From Myxococcaceae bacterium (GTDB taxonomy: Bacteria; Myxococcota; Myxococcia; Myxococcales; Myxococcaceae): 45,119 bases of DNA. Below, piece by piece: positions 31,268 through 36,593 of this stretch. Numbering within the stretch: position 1 is the first letter of the stretch; each line of letters starts with the position of its first letter. The stretch spans positions 1 through 45,119 of the forward strand of contig JAEUJQ010000022.1 in NCBI GenBank assembly GCA_016793095.1, in the 5' to 3' direction. The position numbers and the translations under genes are program-made. The notes beneath the pieces were generated by a model. The model searched no databases. It was not told where the DNA came from and saw only the letters and a program-made list of their open reading frames with translations.

Positions 31268-32167
31268 TCAGCTCACCACGGGCAGCGCCACGCCAGCCGA
31301 GGTGAGGCTGTCGTTCATGCGCCCGCTGCGGAACGGCTCGAGATCGACGGCGACGAAGGTGAAGCCGGCGGCCTTGATGGCGCGATCGACCTGGGCGCGC
31401 ACGCTCGGCTCGAAGAGGCGCGGCAGCTCGTCGGACGCCACCTCGAGGCGGGCGACCTCCTGGTGGTAGCGCACGCGGAACACCCGGAAGCCCAGGGCCT
31501 TGAGCGCACGCTCGGCCGCTCCCACCTGCTGCAGCCGCTGCACCGTCACCTCAGTGCCGTAGGGCAGACGCGACGCGAGGCACGCGAGCTGCGGCTTGTC
31601 CCACGTCGGCAGTCCCAGACGCTGGGACCACGCGCGGATCTCGTTCTTGGTGAGGCCAGCGTCGGCGAGGGGCGAGACGACGCGGTGCTCGCGAGCTGCC
31701 TGGTGACCGGGCCGGTGGTCCTTCTTGTCATCGGCGTTGAAGCCGTCGAGCACCACTGCCAGGCCCTCGGCCGCGCGGGTCTTCTCGGTGAGCGAGTAGA
31801 GCTCGGTCTTGCAGAAGTAGCAGCGGTTCGTCGGGTTGGCTGCGTAGCGCGGGTCGTCGAGCTCCTTCGACTCGACGGTGAGGTGCCGCGCCCCGATCTC
31901 ACCCGCCAGCGCCTTTGCTTCGGCCACCTCGTCATCCGAGACCGACGCCGACAACGCCGTCATCGCGACGGCGCGCTCGCCCAGCTGCTCCACCGCGAGG
32001 CGCAGGACGAAGGTCGAGTCAACGCCACCGGAGAACGCGACCAGCGCCGACCCGTAGCCGCGCAGGCGAGCGCGAACCTGCTCGAGCTTCGCGCTCGAGG
32101 CCTCACACAGCCGCGACACCTCGGCGTCAGACAGGAGCGGCCTGGGGTGTTGCGCGGGGGATTCCAT
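31268..32167 (-). CDS. larE: LarE-type ATP-dependent sulfur transferase
   Basis: A 299-residue PP-loop ATPase. 'LVAFSGGVDSTFVLRLA' is the ATP-binding loop. 'TESKELDDPRYAANPTNRCYFCKTELY', 'VLDGFNADDKKDHRPGHQAA' and 'DKPQLACLASRLPYGT' are LarE signatures. LarE supplies sulfur for the nickel-pincer nucleotide cofactor of lactate racemase, either from its own Cys or through a [4Fe-4S]-bound sulfur. The two Cys of RCYFCK and the Cys of QLACLAS fit the three-Cys, cluster-bearing type. larB and larC are not in the window, so the true acceptor is uncertain. It begins 12 bases after the cysC stop and probably shares its transcript. Confidence 0.85.
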   Translation of the reverse strand: MESPAQHPRPLLSDAEVSRLCEASSAKLEQVRARLRGYGSALVAFSGGVDSTFVLRLAVEQLGERAVAMTALSASVSDDEVAEAKALAGEIGARHLTVESKELDDPRYAANPTNRCYFCKTELYSLTEKTRAAEGLAVVLDGFNADDKKDHRPGHQAAREHRVVSPLADAGLTKNEIRAWSQRLGLPTWDKPQLACLASRLPYGTEVTVQRLQQVGAAERALKALGFRVFRVRYHQEVARLEVASDELPRLFEPSVRAQVDRAIKAAGFTFVAVDLEPFRSGRMNDSLTSAGVALPVVS

Positions 32168-32179
32168 GCGGCCCTCGGG

Positions 32180-32887
32180 TCACTTCTTCTTCTTCGGCTT
32201 CGGCCCCGGCTTGCCCTTCGGCTTCGGTCCCGGCTTGCCCTTCGGCTTCGGGCCCGGCTTGCCTGCCTTCCCCGGCTTGATCTTCTTGCCCTTCGGCGAG
32301 GGCTTCATCTTCGTGCCGGTGATGATCTTCAGCTCCTCGGCGTTCATGTACGTGAGGTCGAGGAGCGCCTGGAAGATGCGCAGGCCGCCCGCCTCGACCG
32401 CCTCCAGGTTCGACTGGATCGTCACCTCGACGCCGTTGACCGGCGGCGGCTCGTAGGGCTCGGTGATGCCGACGAAGTTGGGGATCTCACCGGCGAGCGC
32501 CTTCTTGTACTTGCCGCTCGAGTCCCGCTTGATGAGATCCTCCGTCGGGCAGTTCACGTAGACCTCGACGTACCGCTGGATGAGGCGGCGGTTCTCGTCG
32601 CGGATGGCCTTGTAGGGGCTGGTGCAGGCCACCAGAGTGCAGACGCCGTTCCGGGTCAGCATGTCGGCGACGACGCCCAGGCGGCGGGAGATGACGATCC
32701 GCTCCTCCTTGTTGGCGCCCTCGATCTCGCCCCACAGCGACTCGCCCACCTCGTCCTCGTCCAGCACCTCGACCTTGCGGCCCACCTGACGCAGGCGCGC
32801 GGCGATGTAGTCCGCCAGCGTCGTCTTGCCCGCGCCCAGCATTCCCGTCAGCCACACCGTGAAGCCCTGCTGCTCCTGCTGCGCCAT
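32180..32887 (-). CDS. cysC: CysC-type adenylylsulfate kinase with basic repeat tail
   Basis: A 235-residue protein. The APS kinase core has 'VWLTGMLGAGKTTLADYI' (Walker A), 'VEVLDEDEVGESLW', 'CTLVACTSPYKAIRDENR', 'VEVYVNCPTEDLIKRDSSGKYKKALAGEI' and 'NFVGITEPYEPP'. It would phosphorylate APS to PAPS. After about residue 200 comes an unusual Lys/Pro/Gly tail with three copies of GKPGPKPK, ending in a Lys run, which suggests binding to nucleic acid or an acidic partner. ATG 32887. No cysDN is nearby. A TTGACA overlapping the stop of the upstream JAMM gene could be its promoter, with an 85-base leader. Confidence 0.8.
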   Translation of the reverse strand: MAQQEQQGFTVWLTGMLGAGKTTLADYIAARLRQVGRKVEVLDEDEVGESLWGEIEGANKEERIVISRRLGVVADMLTRNGVCTLVACTSPYKAIRDENRRLIQRYVEVYVNCPTEDLIKRDSSGKYKKALAGEIPNFVGITEPYEPPPVNGVEVTIQSNLEAVEAGGLRIFQALLDLTYMNAEELKIITGTKMKPSPKGKKIKPGKAGKPGPKPKGKPGPKPKGKPGPKPKKKK

Positions 32888-32973
32888 GCGTGTCACGCTC
32901 CTGTGGAGGTGGAGATGCGCCAAAAAGCGCGCTCACTTAGTGCAGGTCGTGCAGTCAGCGCAACTCAATTGTG

Positions 32974-33423
32974 TCAAACGGTGCTACAGGCAGGGGTCCA
33001 GCCCGTCGCGGTGAAGCGCCAGAGCGAGGGAGGACCCGCGCGGCCGGCTCGCACCTCGAAGACGGCCAGGCCGAGGCCGGGTAACAGCGAGGCGCCATCG
33101 ACGGTGAACGCCTGCTGGTCGGAGGCGGAGAGGACCGCCGCCACGTCCACGTGGGAGTGCGCGAGCCACACATGGGGCTCGTCCCCGGGAGCGCCCATCG
33201 CGAGGACCCGGCGCTCGAGGGCCATCCAGGCGCGGGGCTCGATGACGAAGGCGGTGGCGGCCGACTGGGGGAAGTCCCGGGGAGACCGCTGGTGCAGCTC
33301 GTCCGCGACGTTCGGCAGCGCGACGAAGTCCCAGCCGTCGGTACGGGCGAGGTAGGCACAGACGCCCTCGCGCGGCCAAGCGGCTTCGCAGTGACGAGCA
33401 GCTGCGGTGAAGTCCGGTCTCAC
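32974..33423 (-). CDS. JAMM/MPN-domain metalloprotease (M67-like)
   Basis: A 149-residue protein of minimal JAMM length. Glu19 in 'REGVCAYL' and the motif H89-S-H91...S99-x2-D102 fit HxHx7SxxD, so the zinc site is complete. In bacteria such proteins cleave after the C-terminal glycines of ubiquitin-like or sulfur-carrier proteins (for example the CysO-cysteine hydrolase Mec+). The GTG start overlaps the TGA of the gene before it (GTGA). It is the last gene of the E1-TusA-E1-like-JAMM set, which points to processing of a sulfur carrier. No ThiS/MoaD-like carrier is encoded in the window. Confidence 0.82.
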   Translation of the reverse strand: MRPDFTAAARHCEAAWPREGVCAYLARTDGWDFVALPNVADELHQRSPRDFPQSAATAFVIEPRAWMALERRVLAMGAPGDEPHVWLAHSHVDVAAVLSASDQQAFTVDGASLLPGLGLAVFEVRAGRAGPPSLWRFTATGWTPACSTV

Positions 33424-34010
33424 GCGAGCCGCTGCCACCGGCCCTCGACCTGACCCACCGCCAGCGCCGAGCGCTCGAGCCCCAGCGCGTACCGCTGTGC
33501 CACGAGCGCCGCGAGCGCGCCAAGCGCGACCGGATCCGCCTCCGTCGGGGGCAGCAGTCCCGCGTCCGGCAGCGGCCCCCCCGTCGGCGCCGCGAGCGCG
33601 CCAAGCGCGACCGGATCCGCCTCCGTCGGGGGCAGCAGTCCCGCGTCCGGCAGCGGCTCCCCCGTCGGCGCCGCGAGCAGCCCGCGCGCAGAGACCGCGA
33701 CGCGGAACCGGTCGTGGGACGCAGGCGCGAGCTCGAGCGGGCCCAGCCAGCCGACCGGGGCGCTCCGATGGAGGACCGCGTCGGGCGCGAAGGCCTGCAG
33801 CGTCGCCCCGTGAAGAAAGCCGCCTCGGCGCTGCGTGTCCTCGACGACGGGCGTCCCCGATGCCGCGAGGTAGGCGACGGCCACGTCAAGGACCCGAGAC
33901 GCCCCTACGACCTCGACGCACGCCGCCGACAGGCGCTGCTGCCCGCGCCCGCCCACTTCCTTGAGCAGGATCTGCCGGCTGTACCGCTGGATCTGGTCCT
34001 CGGTGAGCAT
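33420..34010 (-). CDS. E1-like protein with N-terminal arm but degenerate nucleotide site
   Basis: A 196-residue protein. Residues 1-27 (MLTEDQIQRYSRQILLKEVG, then GRGQQRL) are the exact N-terminal arm of MoeB/ThiF enzymes, with Arg12 matching the arginine that MoeB inserts into its partner's active site. The following Rossmann strand reads 'VEVVGASRVLDVAVAYLAASG', where GxGGLG is lost, and no zinc CxxC pairs or catalytic Asp are seen. The C-terminal half has a 27-residue tandem repeat (PLPDAGLLPPTEADPVALGA). Its start overlaps the TusA-like stop (TGATG) and its stop overlaps the JAMM start. It looks like the inactive half of a split E1. Simple decay is the alternative. Confidence 0.65.
   Translation of the reverse strand: MLTEDQIQRYSRQILLKEVGGRGQQRLSAACVEVVGASRVLDVAVAYLAASGTPVVEDTQRRGGFLHGATLQAFAPDAVLHRSAPVGWLGPLELAPASHDRFRVAVSARGLLAAPTGEPLPDAGLLPPTEADPVALGALAAPTGGPLPDAGLLPPTEADPVALGALAALVAQRYALGLERSALAVGQVEGRWQRLA
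33508..33681 (-). repeat. 81-bp in-frame tandem repeat in the E1-like gene
   Basis: Two nearly identical 81-base units (27 codons) begin at about 33508 and 33589, followed by a partial third. They are recent duplications by their identity and keep the frame open. Confidence 0.8.
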
Positions 34011-34243
34011 CAGCCGAATTGCACCTCGATGACGAGGCGCGTGCTGCCGTCCTCGAGCTGGTCGAGCGAGCGGACGAGGTGGCCTGCCTCGGTGGCGTTG
34101 CGCGGCAGGTTGCGGAGCGGCTCGGCCCCGTGCAGCAACACCTCGAGGGTGTCGCCGGACTCCAGGGTCTCGAGCCTGAGCTTCACCCGCACCCACGTCA
34201 TGGGGCAGACCTCGCGGGTGATGTCGATGACGGCGTGGGGCAT
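34010..34243 (-). CDS. TusA-family sulfur carrier
   Basis: A 77-residue protein. 'VIDITREVCPMTWVRVKLRLETLESGDTLEVLL' is the TusA fold start with Cys13 in CPxT form, the usual persulfide-carrying cysteine. 'NLPRNATEAGHLV' is the typical middle. TusA-like proteins pass sulfur between a donor and a biosynthetic acceptor. ATG 34243 lies inside the 3' end of the E1-like gene (46-base overlap), and its stop shares a base with the next start, so the four genes are tightly coupled. Confidence 0.82.
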   Translation of the reverse strand: MPHAVIDITREVCPMTWVRVKLRLETLESGDTLEVLLHGAEPLRNLPRNATEAGHLVRSLDQLEDGSTRLVIEVQFG

Positions 34244-34938
34244 GACGGATCGTCCGCGTCGCTCAATACCGGGTTCGCGCCGTGACCGCACGCGGGGCAG
34301 TCGGAGCGGCGCCGCACCTTCACCGTACGGAAGGACAGGTCGAGCCCGTCGATGACGTGCAGCAGCGCCAGCCCAGGCGACGGGTTGGGGCCCACTGCGA
34401 GCGACGCCTGGAGCCCGCCGATGAGCCCCGCCATCGCGCCCAGCACGCCAGCCTCGGCGCAGGTGGGGACGTCGGTGGGCGGGGTCTCGAACAGGCAGCG
34501 CAGGCACGGGCCGCCGCGCTCGAGGCGCATCGCGAGGCCCTCGAAGCGCAGCACGCCCGCGTAGACCGCCGGGGTGCCGGTCAGCACCGCCGCGTCCGAG
34601 AGGAGGAACTTGGTGCCCACGCCGTCGGTCGCGTCGAGCACCACGTCGTGCTCGCGGAAGAGCGCCTCGGCGTTGGAGGCCGTGACGCGCTCGCGCCGGG
34701 TGGCGAGGCTCAGCTCCGGGAACTGGCCGGAGAGCTTCGCGGCCGCGGACTCCACCTTGGGGCGCCCCACGTCGTCGGGGTGGTGCCACGGCTGGCGGTG
34801 CAGGTTGGTGCGCTCGACGAGATCGGGATCGACGAGGGTGAGATGCTCGACGCCCTGCCAGGCGAGCGAGAGCGACGCCGGGCAGCCGAGGCCCCCGACG
34901 CCCACGATCGCGACGCGCTTCGGCACCGAACGGGACAC
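34198..34938 (-). CDS. MoeB/ThiF-type adenylating (E1-like) enzyme lacking the N-terminal arm
   Basis: A 246-residue protein. It begins almost at the Rossmann fold: 'RVAIVGVGGLGCPASLSL', with G13-x-G-G-L-G. Then 'DPDLVERTNLHRQ' (Asp37, Asp39, Asn45, Arg48, Gln49), Lys61, 'VLDATDG' (Asp105), zinc pairs C145-x2-C148 and C214-x2-C217, and 'PTCAEAGVLG' with Cys160. All adenylation residues are present, but the 'RYxRQ' arm in front of the Rossmann strand is absent. Such enzymes activate the C-terminus of ThiS/MoaD-like carriers. GTG 34938 is the preferred start; a TTG at 34974 would add 12 residues with no arm. First gene of the set. Confidence 0.82.
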   Translation of the reverse strand: MSRSVPKRVAIVGVGGLGCPASLSLAWQGVEHLTLVDPDLVERTNLHRQPWHHPDDVGRPKVESAAAKLSGQFPELSLATRRERVTASNAEALFREHDVVLDATDGVGTKFLLSDAAVLTGTPAVYAGVLRFEGLAMRLERGGPCLRCLFETPPTDVPTCAEAGVLGAMAGLIGGLQASLAVGPNPSPGLALLHVIDGLDLSFRTVKVRRRSDCPACGHGANPVLSDADDPSCPTPSSTSPARSAP

Positions 34939-35128
34939 GCTCGTGTTTGTGGCCGCTTTCGCCGCCGTCGGCAATCGCAGAGCGCTCGTGCGCTCCGTTC
35001 CTGTGGAGCTGAAGCCCCAGCTCTGCCGGGGAGGCCCACCAGCCGGCCGAGCGTCGAGCCGCAGAGCGTGAACGCATCGCCAATCGCTGCGGCGTCGAAG
35101 ATCGACTCACCTGCGCCAGGGTCGGCCC

Positions 35129-35218
35129 GTGCTGGGCTCCGACGACGGCGAGCGCGGGTGAAGCAGGTGCTGGAACAGCGGGGGCGCGCTGCGCAGCCCT
35201 CGGCGGGTGACGCGCACG
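35129..35218 (+). pseudogene. Relic 5' end of the histidine kinase gene
   Basis: A GTG in the same position as the kinase start begins 'VLGSDDGERG' and stops after ten codons, because one base is missing relative to copy 2. The following bases still match the kinase coding sequence in another frame. Confidence 0.6.
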
Positions 35219-35327
35219 AGCTGAAGCTCCAGCGCTGCTGGCCAGGCCCACCAGGCGGCTGACGTCGAGCCGCGGAGCGTGAGCGCATCGCCGATCGCTG
35301 CGGCGACGAAGATCGACTCACCTGGGC

Positions 35328-35333
35328 TAGGGT
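35328..35333 (+). promoter_or_regulatory. -10 element of the histidine kinase gene
   Basis: TAGGGT lies 12 bases before GTG 35340, with no ribosome binding site. The duplicated relic upstream has CAGGGT at this place, consistent with the T being needed for function. Confidence 0.4.
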
Positions 35334-35339
35334 CGGCCC

Positions 35340-36593
35340 GTGGCCGGCTCCGACGACAGGCGCGCGCGGGTGAAGCAGGTGCTGGAGCAGCGCGGGCTCT
35401 CTGCGCAGCCCTCGACCGGCGACGCCCGCCAGGCGTGGCTGCGCGATCGGTTCGTCGCCCGGGCCAGAGCGCTCTTCTACGCGCGCATGACGTTCTTGAC
35501 CCTGGGCCTGCTGATCCTCGCGGTGCCTGTGTGGCGCGTGTACTTCGGGTTCACGCCGCTCGCGTTCGGCATGTACTTCTTCATGCTGCTCTACAGCGTC
35601 GCGAACTACCTCGCGCTGGGGCACCCGCGGCTCGGCAGCCTCATCACCTATGCCACGCTGCTGATCGACCTCGTGGTGATGGTGATCGTGGTGGCGAAGC
35701 CGATGACCGGCGGCGGCCTCGCGAACCCGCTGCTGGCCTCGCAGCTGCTCTTCACCACGCTGTTCGCCCTGCTCTTCCCCAAGCCCCTCGCGATCCTGCC
35801 GCCGCTGCTGGCGCTGCCGATCGTGACGCGCATCGATCAGCTGCTGAACCGTACCCCGACGGCGATCGAGATCCTCACGCTGCTCTGGTACCTCGCGCTC
35901 AACTTCATCATCATCTACGTGCTCGTGTACCTGAACCAGCGCGAGACGAGCGCGCACCTCGAGGTGATCGAGCTGCAACAGGATCTGCGCGACCTCGCGG
36001 TGGTCGAGGAGCGGAACCGGCTGGCGCGCGAGATCCATGACGGGCTGGGCGCCAGCCTCTCGTCCCTCATCATCCAGAGCGAGTACCTGGGCTCGCTCAC
36101 GAAGGACGAGTCACTGCTCAAGGAGATCACTGAGCTCAAGGCCTCGGCCGAAGACTCCATCGAGGAGCTGCGGCGCAGCCTCAGGATGATGCGCGAGGAC
36201 TTCGATCTCGGCATGGGCGTCGAGGACTACGTGAAGACGTTCGGCGAACGAACGCAGCTCCCGGTGCGCTTCGAGAAGAGCGGGGAGTGGCTCGGCAAGC
36301 TGGCGCCGGAGTCGTCGCTCGCGATGTTCCGCGTGCTCCAGGAGCTGCTCACCAACGCGCTCAAGCACGCCAGGGCGAAGCAGGTCGACGTGCGGCTGTC
36401 CTTTCTTCCCGAGCGGGTGCAGCTCTCGGTGAAGGACGACGGGCAGGGCTTCGACCCCAGGGCGCCGCGGCCCGGTCACTACGGCCTCATCAACCTCCAG
36501 GAGCGCGCCAACAAGGTGGGCGCGACCGTGAACGTCGAAGCGCAGCCGGGCGCCGGCGTGCACGTCACCTTCAGCGTCCCGTTGACGGAGTAA
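35340..36593 (+). CDS. Membrane sensor histidine kinase (NarL/LiaS class, HisKA_3)
   Basis: A 417-residue protein. Residues 35-200 hold about six membrane helices, with short loops and no large periplasmic domain. A short coiled coil leads to the HisKA_3 dimerisation helix 'VVEERNRLAREIHDGLGASLSSL', phospho-His about residue 233. The HATPase_c domain follows with 'ELLTNALKHARAKQ' (N box), 'VKDDGQGFDP' (G1), 'GHYGLINLQERANKVGA' (G2). It probably senses a membrane or small-molecule signal. The partner regulator starts three bases after its stop. GTG start directly follows TAGGGT. Confidence 0.9.
   Translation: MAGSDDRRARVKQVLEQRGLSAQPSTGDARQAWLRDRFVARARALFYARMTFLTLGLLILAVPVWRVYFGFTPLAFGMYFFMLLYSVANYLALGHPRLGSLITYATLLIDLVVMVIVVAKPMTGGGLANPLLASQLLFTTLFALLFPKPLAILPPLLALPIVTRIDQLLNRTPTAIEILTLLWYLALNFIIIYVLVYLNQRETSAHLEVIELQQDLRDLAVVEERNRLAREIHDGLGASLSSLIIQSEYLGSLTKDESLLKEITELKASAEDSIEELRRSLRMMREDFDLGMGVEDYVKTFGERTQLPVRFEKSGEWLGKLAPESSLAMFRVLQELLTNALKHARAKQVDVRLSFLPERVQLSVKDDGQGFDPRAPRPGHYGLINLQERANKVGATVNVEAQPGAGVHVTFSVPLTE

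Follow-up and report, generated by a model that had tools for sequence, protein, structure and literature searches.

A probable heterodimeric E1-like enzyme for ubiquitin-like sulfur carriers encoded in a bacterial sulfur-transfer operon

The window analysed here is the whole 45,119-nucleotide stretch of contig JAEUJQ010000022.1 (positions 1 to 45,119, assembly GCA_016793095.1) from a Myxococcaceae bacterium, and our subject is a minus-strand operon within it that encodes two different proteins related to the E1 enzymes MoeB and ThiF, termed E1a and E1b below. Reading frames and domain matches bear out the four overlapping genes described in a first-pass annotation (E1a, a TusA-like protein, E1b and a JAMM protease), but the operon runs further than that description, into genes for adenosine 5′-phosphosulfate (APS) kinase and LarE. 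The features are as follows.

34198..34974, minus strand: E1a, predicted active adenylation half (ThiF/MoeB fold); frame from TTG 34974, likely start GTG 34938 (also the first-pass start); from the open reading frame and domain matches
34010..34243, minus strand: TusA-like sulfurtransferase with a CPMT motif and a C-terminus lacking Gly-Gly (TusA match 2.1e-16)
33420..34010, minus strand: E1b, arm-bearing and predicted inactive E1 half (pseudo-E1) of 196 amino acids; from profile matches, alignment and a fold model
33924..34010, minus strand: E1b arm, residues 1-29, MLTEDQIQRYSRQILLKEVGGRGQQRLSA
33506..33667, minus strand: 81-bp tandem duplication (99%) in E1b, adding 27 residues
32974..33423, minus strand: JAMM metalloprotease (Mec+/desampylase type) with HxHx7SxxD; frame open from GTG 33438
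32180..32923, minus strand: APS kinase (CysC) with a Lys/Pro/Gly-rich tail; above the NCBIfam cut-off
31268..32167, minus strand: LarE, ATP-dependent sacrificial sulfur transferase; above the NCBIfam cut-off

On the minus strand the genes are read in the order E1a, TusA, E1b, JAMM, APS kinase and LarE. The TusA and E1b genes share the stop-start overlap TGATG, and E1b and JAMM share GTGA if JAMM begins at GTG 33423. JAMM matches Prok-JAB at E 1.2e-5 (25.5 bits against a cut-off of 25) and reads HSHx7SASD, so that the complete protease motif noted at first pass is indeed present. A hidden carrier gene between TusA and E1b in the window was considered and excluded, as the overlapping genes leave no room for one. 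Both the gene order and the division of features between the two E1-like proteins repeat across relatives, and the arrangement in the window is therefore not due to chance.

E1a has a full adenylation site and lacks the N-terminal arm, as had been claimed. Specifically, it matches Pfam ThiF with an E value of 1.2e-54, and motifs read directly from the protein include GVGGLG, NLHRQ, GRPKVES, DATD, PTCAEAG and two CxxC pairs. The Pfam alignment begins at position 21 of the 238 in the profile, and hence the first 20 positions, which hold the arm, are missing from the window E1a; NCBIfam MoeB models align from residue 17-20 on. ThiF is the sole weighty Pfam match over the 258 amino acids, and neither of the canonical eukaryotic E1 domains (catalytic-cysteine and ubiquitin-fold) was matched in E1a.

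Relatives were compared by gathering loci through an E1b search of 60 related genomes and an E1a scan of contigs, from which profiles were built. The resulting set holds 75 E1a-E1b pairs, one locus per genome except for two from G054, chosen mostly via E1b, and these were aligned with 70 ordinary E1s. Among the 75 E1a proteins (MoeB numbering), R73 is present in all, K86 and D130 in 74 each and C187 in 73, and the sole E1a that departs at K86 and D130 belongs to the second pair of G054. An arm profile derived from the 70 ordinary E1s gave no match below E 0.86 in the E1a upstream stretches that were long enough to search (72 of 75); in 22 of the 75 loci the open frame extends fewer than 35 residues ahead of the E1a fold, and in at least one of these the cause is the end of the locus. 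Regular-expression matches to the arm in four upstream stretches proved to be arginine runs and received no support from the arm profile. The E1a arm column of the alignment is blank by construction, since E1a rows were trimmed to start at the first strand.

The complementary features are found in E1b. The window protein matches Pfam ThiF at positions 1-43 only (E 0.0016, below the Pfam cut-off), and NCBIfam MoeB aligns with its residues 2-53 (1e-9, also below cut-off); judged from these alignments, the matched region corresponds to the arm and the first strand. The arm reads RYSRQ, in agreement with the earlier description of a short E1 with an arm and no ATP site, and Arg12 (codon 33977-33975) aligns with the arm arginine of ordinary E1s, a column that we take to be MoeB Arg14. 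The arm profile matches all 75 E1b proteins (worst E 1.3e-4) and every one keeps the arm arginine, counts that are partly by construction because E1b was detected through its arm. None of the 75 retains all three of the ATP-site residues R73, K86 and D130, or even any two, although residue counts in the middle of E1b are in our judgement rough because that region aligns poorly. For comparison, 69 of the 70 ordinary E1s carry the arm arginine in cis and all 70 have R73, K86 and D130 together.

E1b proteins vary greatly in length, from 88 to more than 200 amino acids, the longest being near full-length inactive halves of ~235 amino acids. The shortest stop-terminated examples have 88, 94, 102, 113 and 120 amino acids (G010, G038, G051, G047 and G058, respectively). 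The 81-bp in-frame duplication of the window E1b was found in none of 25 other E1b genes compared and is thus probably recent; part of the 27-residue duplicated segment is a low-confidence loop in the fold model.

Because the 75 pairs were selected mostly by the presence of E1b, we took the neighbour count from a Pfam ThiF search of the 60 related genomes, with matches listed down to ~1e-33. Among the matches listed are 47 armless MoeB/ThiF-type E1s in 46 genomes, and all 47 have a same-strand E1b nearby, a count that is less affected by construction than the arm score since it derives from the Pfam model. Contig-end fragments G055:C143 and G014:C711 were left out of this count. Counted by genome, E1a and E1b occur together in 46, neither occurs in 12, E1b alone in two and E1a alone in none (Fisher p 6.5e-11, relatedness uncorrected), which is the co-occurrence that the first-pass annotation had proposed to look for. 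In the two genomes with E1b only, the gene is at the end of its contig, and the sequence available on its other side holds JAMM and further operon genes. Two armless ThiF matches without E1b (G056:C458, locus L186, and G057:C1:1873978, locus L189) were set aside as members of other families; their E1a-profile scores are 109 and 86 bits, and three split-pair E1a proteins score 226, 228 and 272 bits. Separately, the second E1a-E1b pair of G054 (L158, C1:3600000-3607500) has no match to TusA, carrier, JAMM, CysC or LarE in that 7.5 kb.

Single-chain AlphaFold2 models of E1b were made for the window protein and for the Corallococcus protein at locus L038, and were compared with known structures using Foldseek and VIA-align. 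Both models adopt the E1 fold, with a mean predicted local distance difference test (pLDDT) of 80.8 and a predicted template modelling score (pTM) of 0.78 for the window and values of 73.4 and 0.74 for L038. The top Foldseek match is ThiF, and MoeB and Uba4 are among those that follow. For the window E1b, VIA-align returns SAE1 with a Z score of 15.0 (root-mean-square deviation 5.0 over 184 aligned residues), ThiF with 14.3 (3.3, 165), MoeB with 14.2 (3.5, 168) and APPBP1 with 13.9 (6.0, 182), so that in this model SAE1, ThiF and MoeB are tied as best matches. For L038 the corresponding values are 19.2 for MoeB (2.5, 197), 19.1 for ThiF (2.6, 196), 17.7 for SAE1 (2.6, 190) and 17.3 for APPBP1 (2.5, 181). 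Like SAE1 and APPBP1, then, modelled E1b combines an E1 fold and the arm arginine with the lack of an ATP site, the fold evidence being biased by the input alignments as described below.

In MoeB and ThiF each chain has its own arm, and in eukaryotic heterodimeric E1s the arm is on the inactive half. We consider it likely that E1a and E1b form a heterodimer, and the observations as a whole are probably best explained by an obligate heterodimeric E1-like enzyme for ubiquitin-like sulfur carriers. The first-pass suggestion that an active half and an inactive, arm-bearing half make up one two-chain E1 gains support from the 75 complementary pairs of sequences. Under this proposal, E1a would bind ATP and the C-terminal Gly-Gly of the carrier, whereas E1b, a shrunken inactive E1, would occupy the place of the second copy in a MoeB/ThiF homodimer and insert Arg12 into the E1a ATP site, mirroring the role of the inactive half in heterodimeric E1s of eukaryotes. 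TusA would supply persulfide sulfur to turn the acyl-adenylate into a thiocarboxylate, and JAMM would trim carrier C-termini or cleave carrier fusions. In UBA1, a sulfate at the place of the gamma-phosphate is bound by Arg57 and Arg515, an interaction also described for MoeB-MoaD-AMP in a 2025 review of E1 enzymes (PMC12355090); we take Arg57 to lie on the inactive half.

Alternatively, E1a might be an armless homodimer, with E1b serving as an adaptor for TusA, JAMM or the carrier and keeping the arm as a docking segment. In G026 and G011 a single open frame spans E1b and JAMM (L172 3685-4737 and L173 3366-4307), demonstrating that E1b can travel with JAMM, and the variable length of the E1b body would suit an adaptor as well. 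We regard this arrangement as unlikely, since it explains neither the arm arginine in all 75 E1b proteins nor the retention of the ATP site by an E1a that lacks the arm.

Evolutionary rates bear on whether E1b is functional at all. Ratios of non-synonymous to synonymous substitution (dN/dS) were calculated pairwise within three genera by the Nei-Gojobori method with an in-house script. In the window's genus (21 pairs) the E1b median is 0.46 against 0.22 for E1a; the two medians are 0.14 and 0.13 in g26 (105 pairs), and 0.25 and 0.13 in g23 (55 pairs). In all three genera non-synonymous differences are rarer in the first 60 columns of E1b than in the remainder. E1b is under purifying selection. 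The notion that it is a pseudogene, left by the decay of a second E1 and hitch-hiking in the operon, could draw on the lost ATP-site residues, the shortened gene, the ratio of 0.46 in the window's genus and the tandem duplication in the window copy. It is nevertheless very improbable given purifying selection in three genera, open frames in every family that has the pair, and an E1b adjoining each of the 47 armless E1a genes among the matches listed. Relatives with an armed first gene and a decayed short gene, which the first-pass annotation named as grounds for abandoning the two-chain idea, were sought and not encountered, there being no arm in the 72 of 75 stretches searched and E1b being under purifying selection.

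Within the order the pair occurs in families f1, f2 and f4-f9, and beyond it in G069, from another family of the phylum. This phylum-wide search covered 195 genomes of 300 requested, and gave weak E1b-profile matches outside the order besides G069. Among the best 80 of 102 relatives in the E1a contig scan, L031-L040 have the split pair and 70 have arm-bearing E1s. In a tree of 75 rows, 31 E1a proteins cluster together (97/70), separately from MoeB-type E1s of their order; allowing a single change, this cluster recurs in 98% of 200 trees from a bootstrap that had not settled. Nine long E1b proteins form a separate group (100/98) on a long branch, and for this reason the parent E1 of E1b is not identifiable from the tree. 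The E1a cluster has as its nearest neighbours two arm-bearing E1s from family f3 (L205 and L210), and no split pair was found in the five f3 genomes searched. These sequences are most simply explained if the armless E1 arose once. The split is old.

The operons of relatives indicate what the enzyme might act on. The fullest version runs E1a, TusA, carrier, E1b, a CysM-like gene, JAMM, CysC and LarE, and lineages miss different parts of it. Many relatives have an extra gene of 90-91 codons between TusA and E1b whose product bears Gly-Gly at or near its end. This CysO-like carrier is in the operon of 49 of the 75 loci and is missing from 26, the window included. The earlier remark that no ThiS/MoaD carrier is present accordingly holds for the window operon but not for relatives, nor for the window's genome (G000), where ThiS and MoaD-MoaE are encoded elsewhere. 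One carrier that was scanned reaches the SAMP1 cut-off (60.2 versus 60 bits). Of the 49 carriers whose end is complete, 39 terminate in Gly-Gly and 10 have one or two residues beyond it, a natural task for JAMM. The protease is present in most loci, and HxHx7SxxD is found in 62 of 63 complete copies (the exception is G016). Twelve loci in which ~1 kb separates E1b from JAMM were inspected, and a CysM-like gene was read there in each; a motif scan extended to all 75 detected 12, namely eleven of those read and G055, and missed G008, for a total of 13. One such gene that was scanned has TIGR01138 (cysM) as its best match, below the cut-off of that model. A Gly-Gly carrier, CysM, JAMM and an E1 in one operon, the hallmarks of the CysO-CysM-Mec+ pathway, thus occur together in part of the relatives, and the window operon lacks the carrier and CysM. 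The CysO-like carrier in 49 loci and the CysM-like gene in 13 point to cysteine synthesis as the older role.

TusA is found in 63 of the 75 loci and missing from 12. The earlier suggestion that it might be the acceptor is made unlikely by the CysO-like carrier in 49 operons, and the Cys-Pro motif is kept in all 63 complete copies, of which two end in Gly-Gly. Even in the window's genus, where no operon carrier was found in seven genomes, adenylation of the TusA-like protein itself is the most improbable of the alternatives, given these same TusA counts and a genome with both ThiS and MoaD-MoaE.

Each of the seven genomes of the window's genus lacks an operon carrier gene and has two ThiS/MoaD-type matches. 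In G000 the carriers found are ThiS, whose gene adjoins one identified by eye as thiazole-synthase-like, and a MoaD-MoaE fusion; MoaD and MoaE matches share one open frame in all seven genomes. No orthologue of the operon CysM was found elsewhere in G000, where the best matches, 33-39% identical, were taken as CysK types. Among the matches listed to ~1e-33 there is no full-length MoeB/ThiF-type E1 in these seven genomes or in G007, G018, G023, G040 and G046, and apart from G000 the E1b profile found no second arm-bearing E1 at 1e-6 in these genomes. The split E1 is therefore the sole evident activator of ThiS and MoaD there. With ThiS and MoaD-MoaE the only carriers found, and with no operon carrier, CysM or full MoeB in the genus, the pair probably serves those two; for the specific claim that it activates ThiS and the MoaD part of MoaD-MoaE, which proceeds by elimination, we would put the chances at about even. 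JAMM would then cleave MoaD-MoaE before MoaD is activated.

These twelve genomes also bear on the idea that E1b lends its arm to an ordinary MoeB or other E1 elsewhere rather than to E1a. A full-length MoeB-type E1 is indeed present in most relatives with the pair. Yet ordinary E1s carry their own arm, E1b persists in the 12 genomes without a full-length MoeB/ThiF-type E1 among the matches listed, and E1b without E1a was seen in the 60 genomes only at two contig edges, so we give this idea very little credence.

Three ThiF-fold reading frames were found in G000: E1a, a TcdA-like protein and a divergent protein of 195 amino acids whose match is weaker than ~1e-33. The last is encoded on contig C22 (L113 1204-2076; also L199) with a 78-amino-acid protein, adjoining a sigma-54-type regulator. 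It is armless, SSQ replaces the LxRQ arginine, and it appears to belong to another small E1-like system.

Several points weigh against an obligate heterodimer acting on sulfur carriers. The reach of the arm into the E1a ATP site is predicted from homology, and the E1b models are pulled toward the E1 fold because full E1s make up 11 of the 22 (window) and 15 of the 26 (L038) alignment rows used. The limits given above on the arm counts and on the middle of E1b belong here as well. The window E1b lacks zinc cysteines and carries the 27-residue duplication, and among the three genera E1b evolves fastest in that of the window. The substrate is not fixed, given that the carrier is missing from 26 and TusA from 12 of the 75 loci. 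No more than 13 of the loci showed a CysM-like gene. The 195-amino-acid protein on contig C22, as another armless E1-fold protein, could be an alternative activator. Finally, several of the genomes that supplied loci are fragmented.

Among known enzymes, E. coli MoeB and ThiF, mycobacterial MoeZR and Uba4 share with E1a the fold, the ATP-site residues, the active-site cysteine and the zinc cysteines, and the same kind of substrate is available in the operons of relatives. Unlike in MoeB and ThiF, the arm is on a separate inactive chain. MoeZR is described as serving both molybdenum cofactor and CysO carriers, and so offers a precedent for one E1 common to both (PMC3227635). The 2025 review treats MoeB and ThiF as homodimers, and describes SAE and NAE as heterodimers, with an inactive adenylation half beside the active one in both SAE1-SAE2 and NAE1(APPBP1)-UBA3 (PMC12355090). 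SAE1 and APPBP1 match the E1b models nearly as well as MoeB and ThiF do. The split system differs from SAE and NAE in that E1a has no matched catalytic-cysteine or ubiquitin-fold domain, the genes lie in a sulfur-transfer operon, and E1b is much smaller. The bacterial form probably arose separately.

Sulfur-assimilation operons combining E1, JAB, SirA and adenylylsulfate kinase have been described as types 4c-4e, and an E1-rhodanese/JAB type is assigned to Anaeromyxobacter in the same survey (Iyer 2006, PMC1779556). These operons and the CysO-CysM-Mec+ system have parts in common with ours in varied combinations, namely carrier, cysteine synthase, JAMM, SirA/TusA, adenylylsulfate kinase and E1 (PMC1779556). 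The relevant sections of that survey mention no paired E1 (PMC1779556), whereas here the E1 is two-chain and LarE is included, and the window lacks carrier and CysM. In Deinococcus, DRJAMM is reported to cleave MoaD-MoaE (PMC8832034), and as in the window's genome the JAMM and the fusion occur together. Cleavage in the window's genome is presumed, and its JAMM, in contrast to DRJAMM, sits in a split-E1 operon. A literature search, judged by titles and the starts of abstracts, turned up no recognised report of a bacterial MoeB/ThiF-type E1 that is split or heterodimeric, which is weak evidence of novelty.

The eukaryotic SUMO, NEDD8 and ubiquitin E1s have one dead half, and the pair described here would be a bacterial E1 with a like division of labour. 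We tentatively propose, at somewhat less than even confidence, that bacteria independently evolved an asymmetric two-chain E1 in which one E1 lost its arm and its partner was reduced to the arm and a supporting core (88-120 amino acids in five genomes), and that in twelve genomes, including that of the window, the heterodimer has taken the place of every MoeB/ThiF enzyme and activates all sulfur carriers. The split pair points to one E1 common to several carriers in genomes without MoeB. It also allows the arm arginine to be tested in trans by mixing chains, and the sizes of E1b, from ~235 amino acids down to little beyond the arm, form a natural series for determining what a dead half must supply.

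Two further features were noted near these genes. The C-terminal tail of the APS kinase is repetitive, with KPGPKPKG repeats (window 32180-32400), and a tandem duplication of ~212 bp (84-91% per block) lies at 35006-35432, between E1a and the start of a divergent histidine kinase gene.

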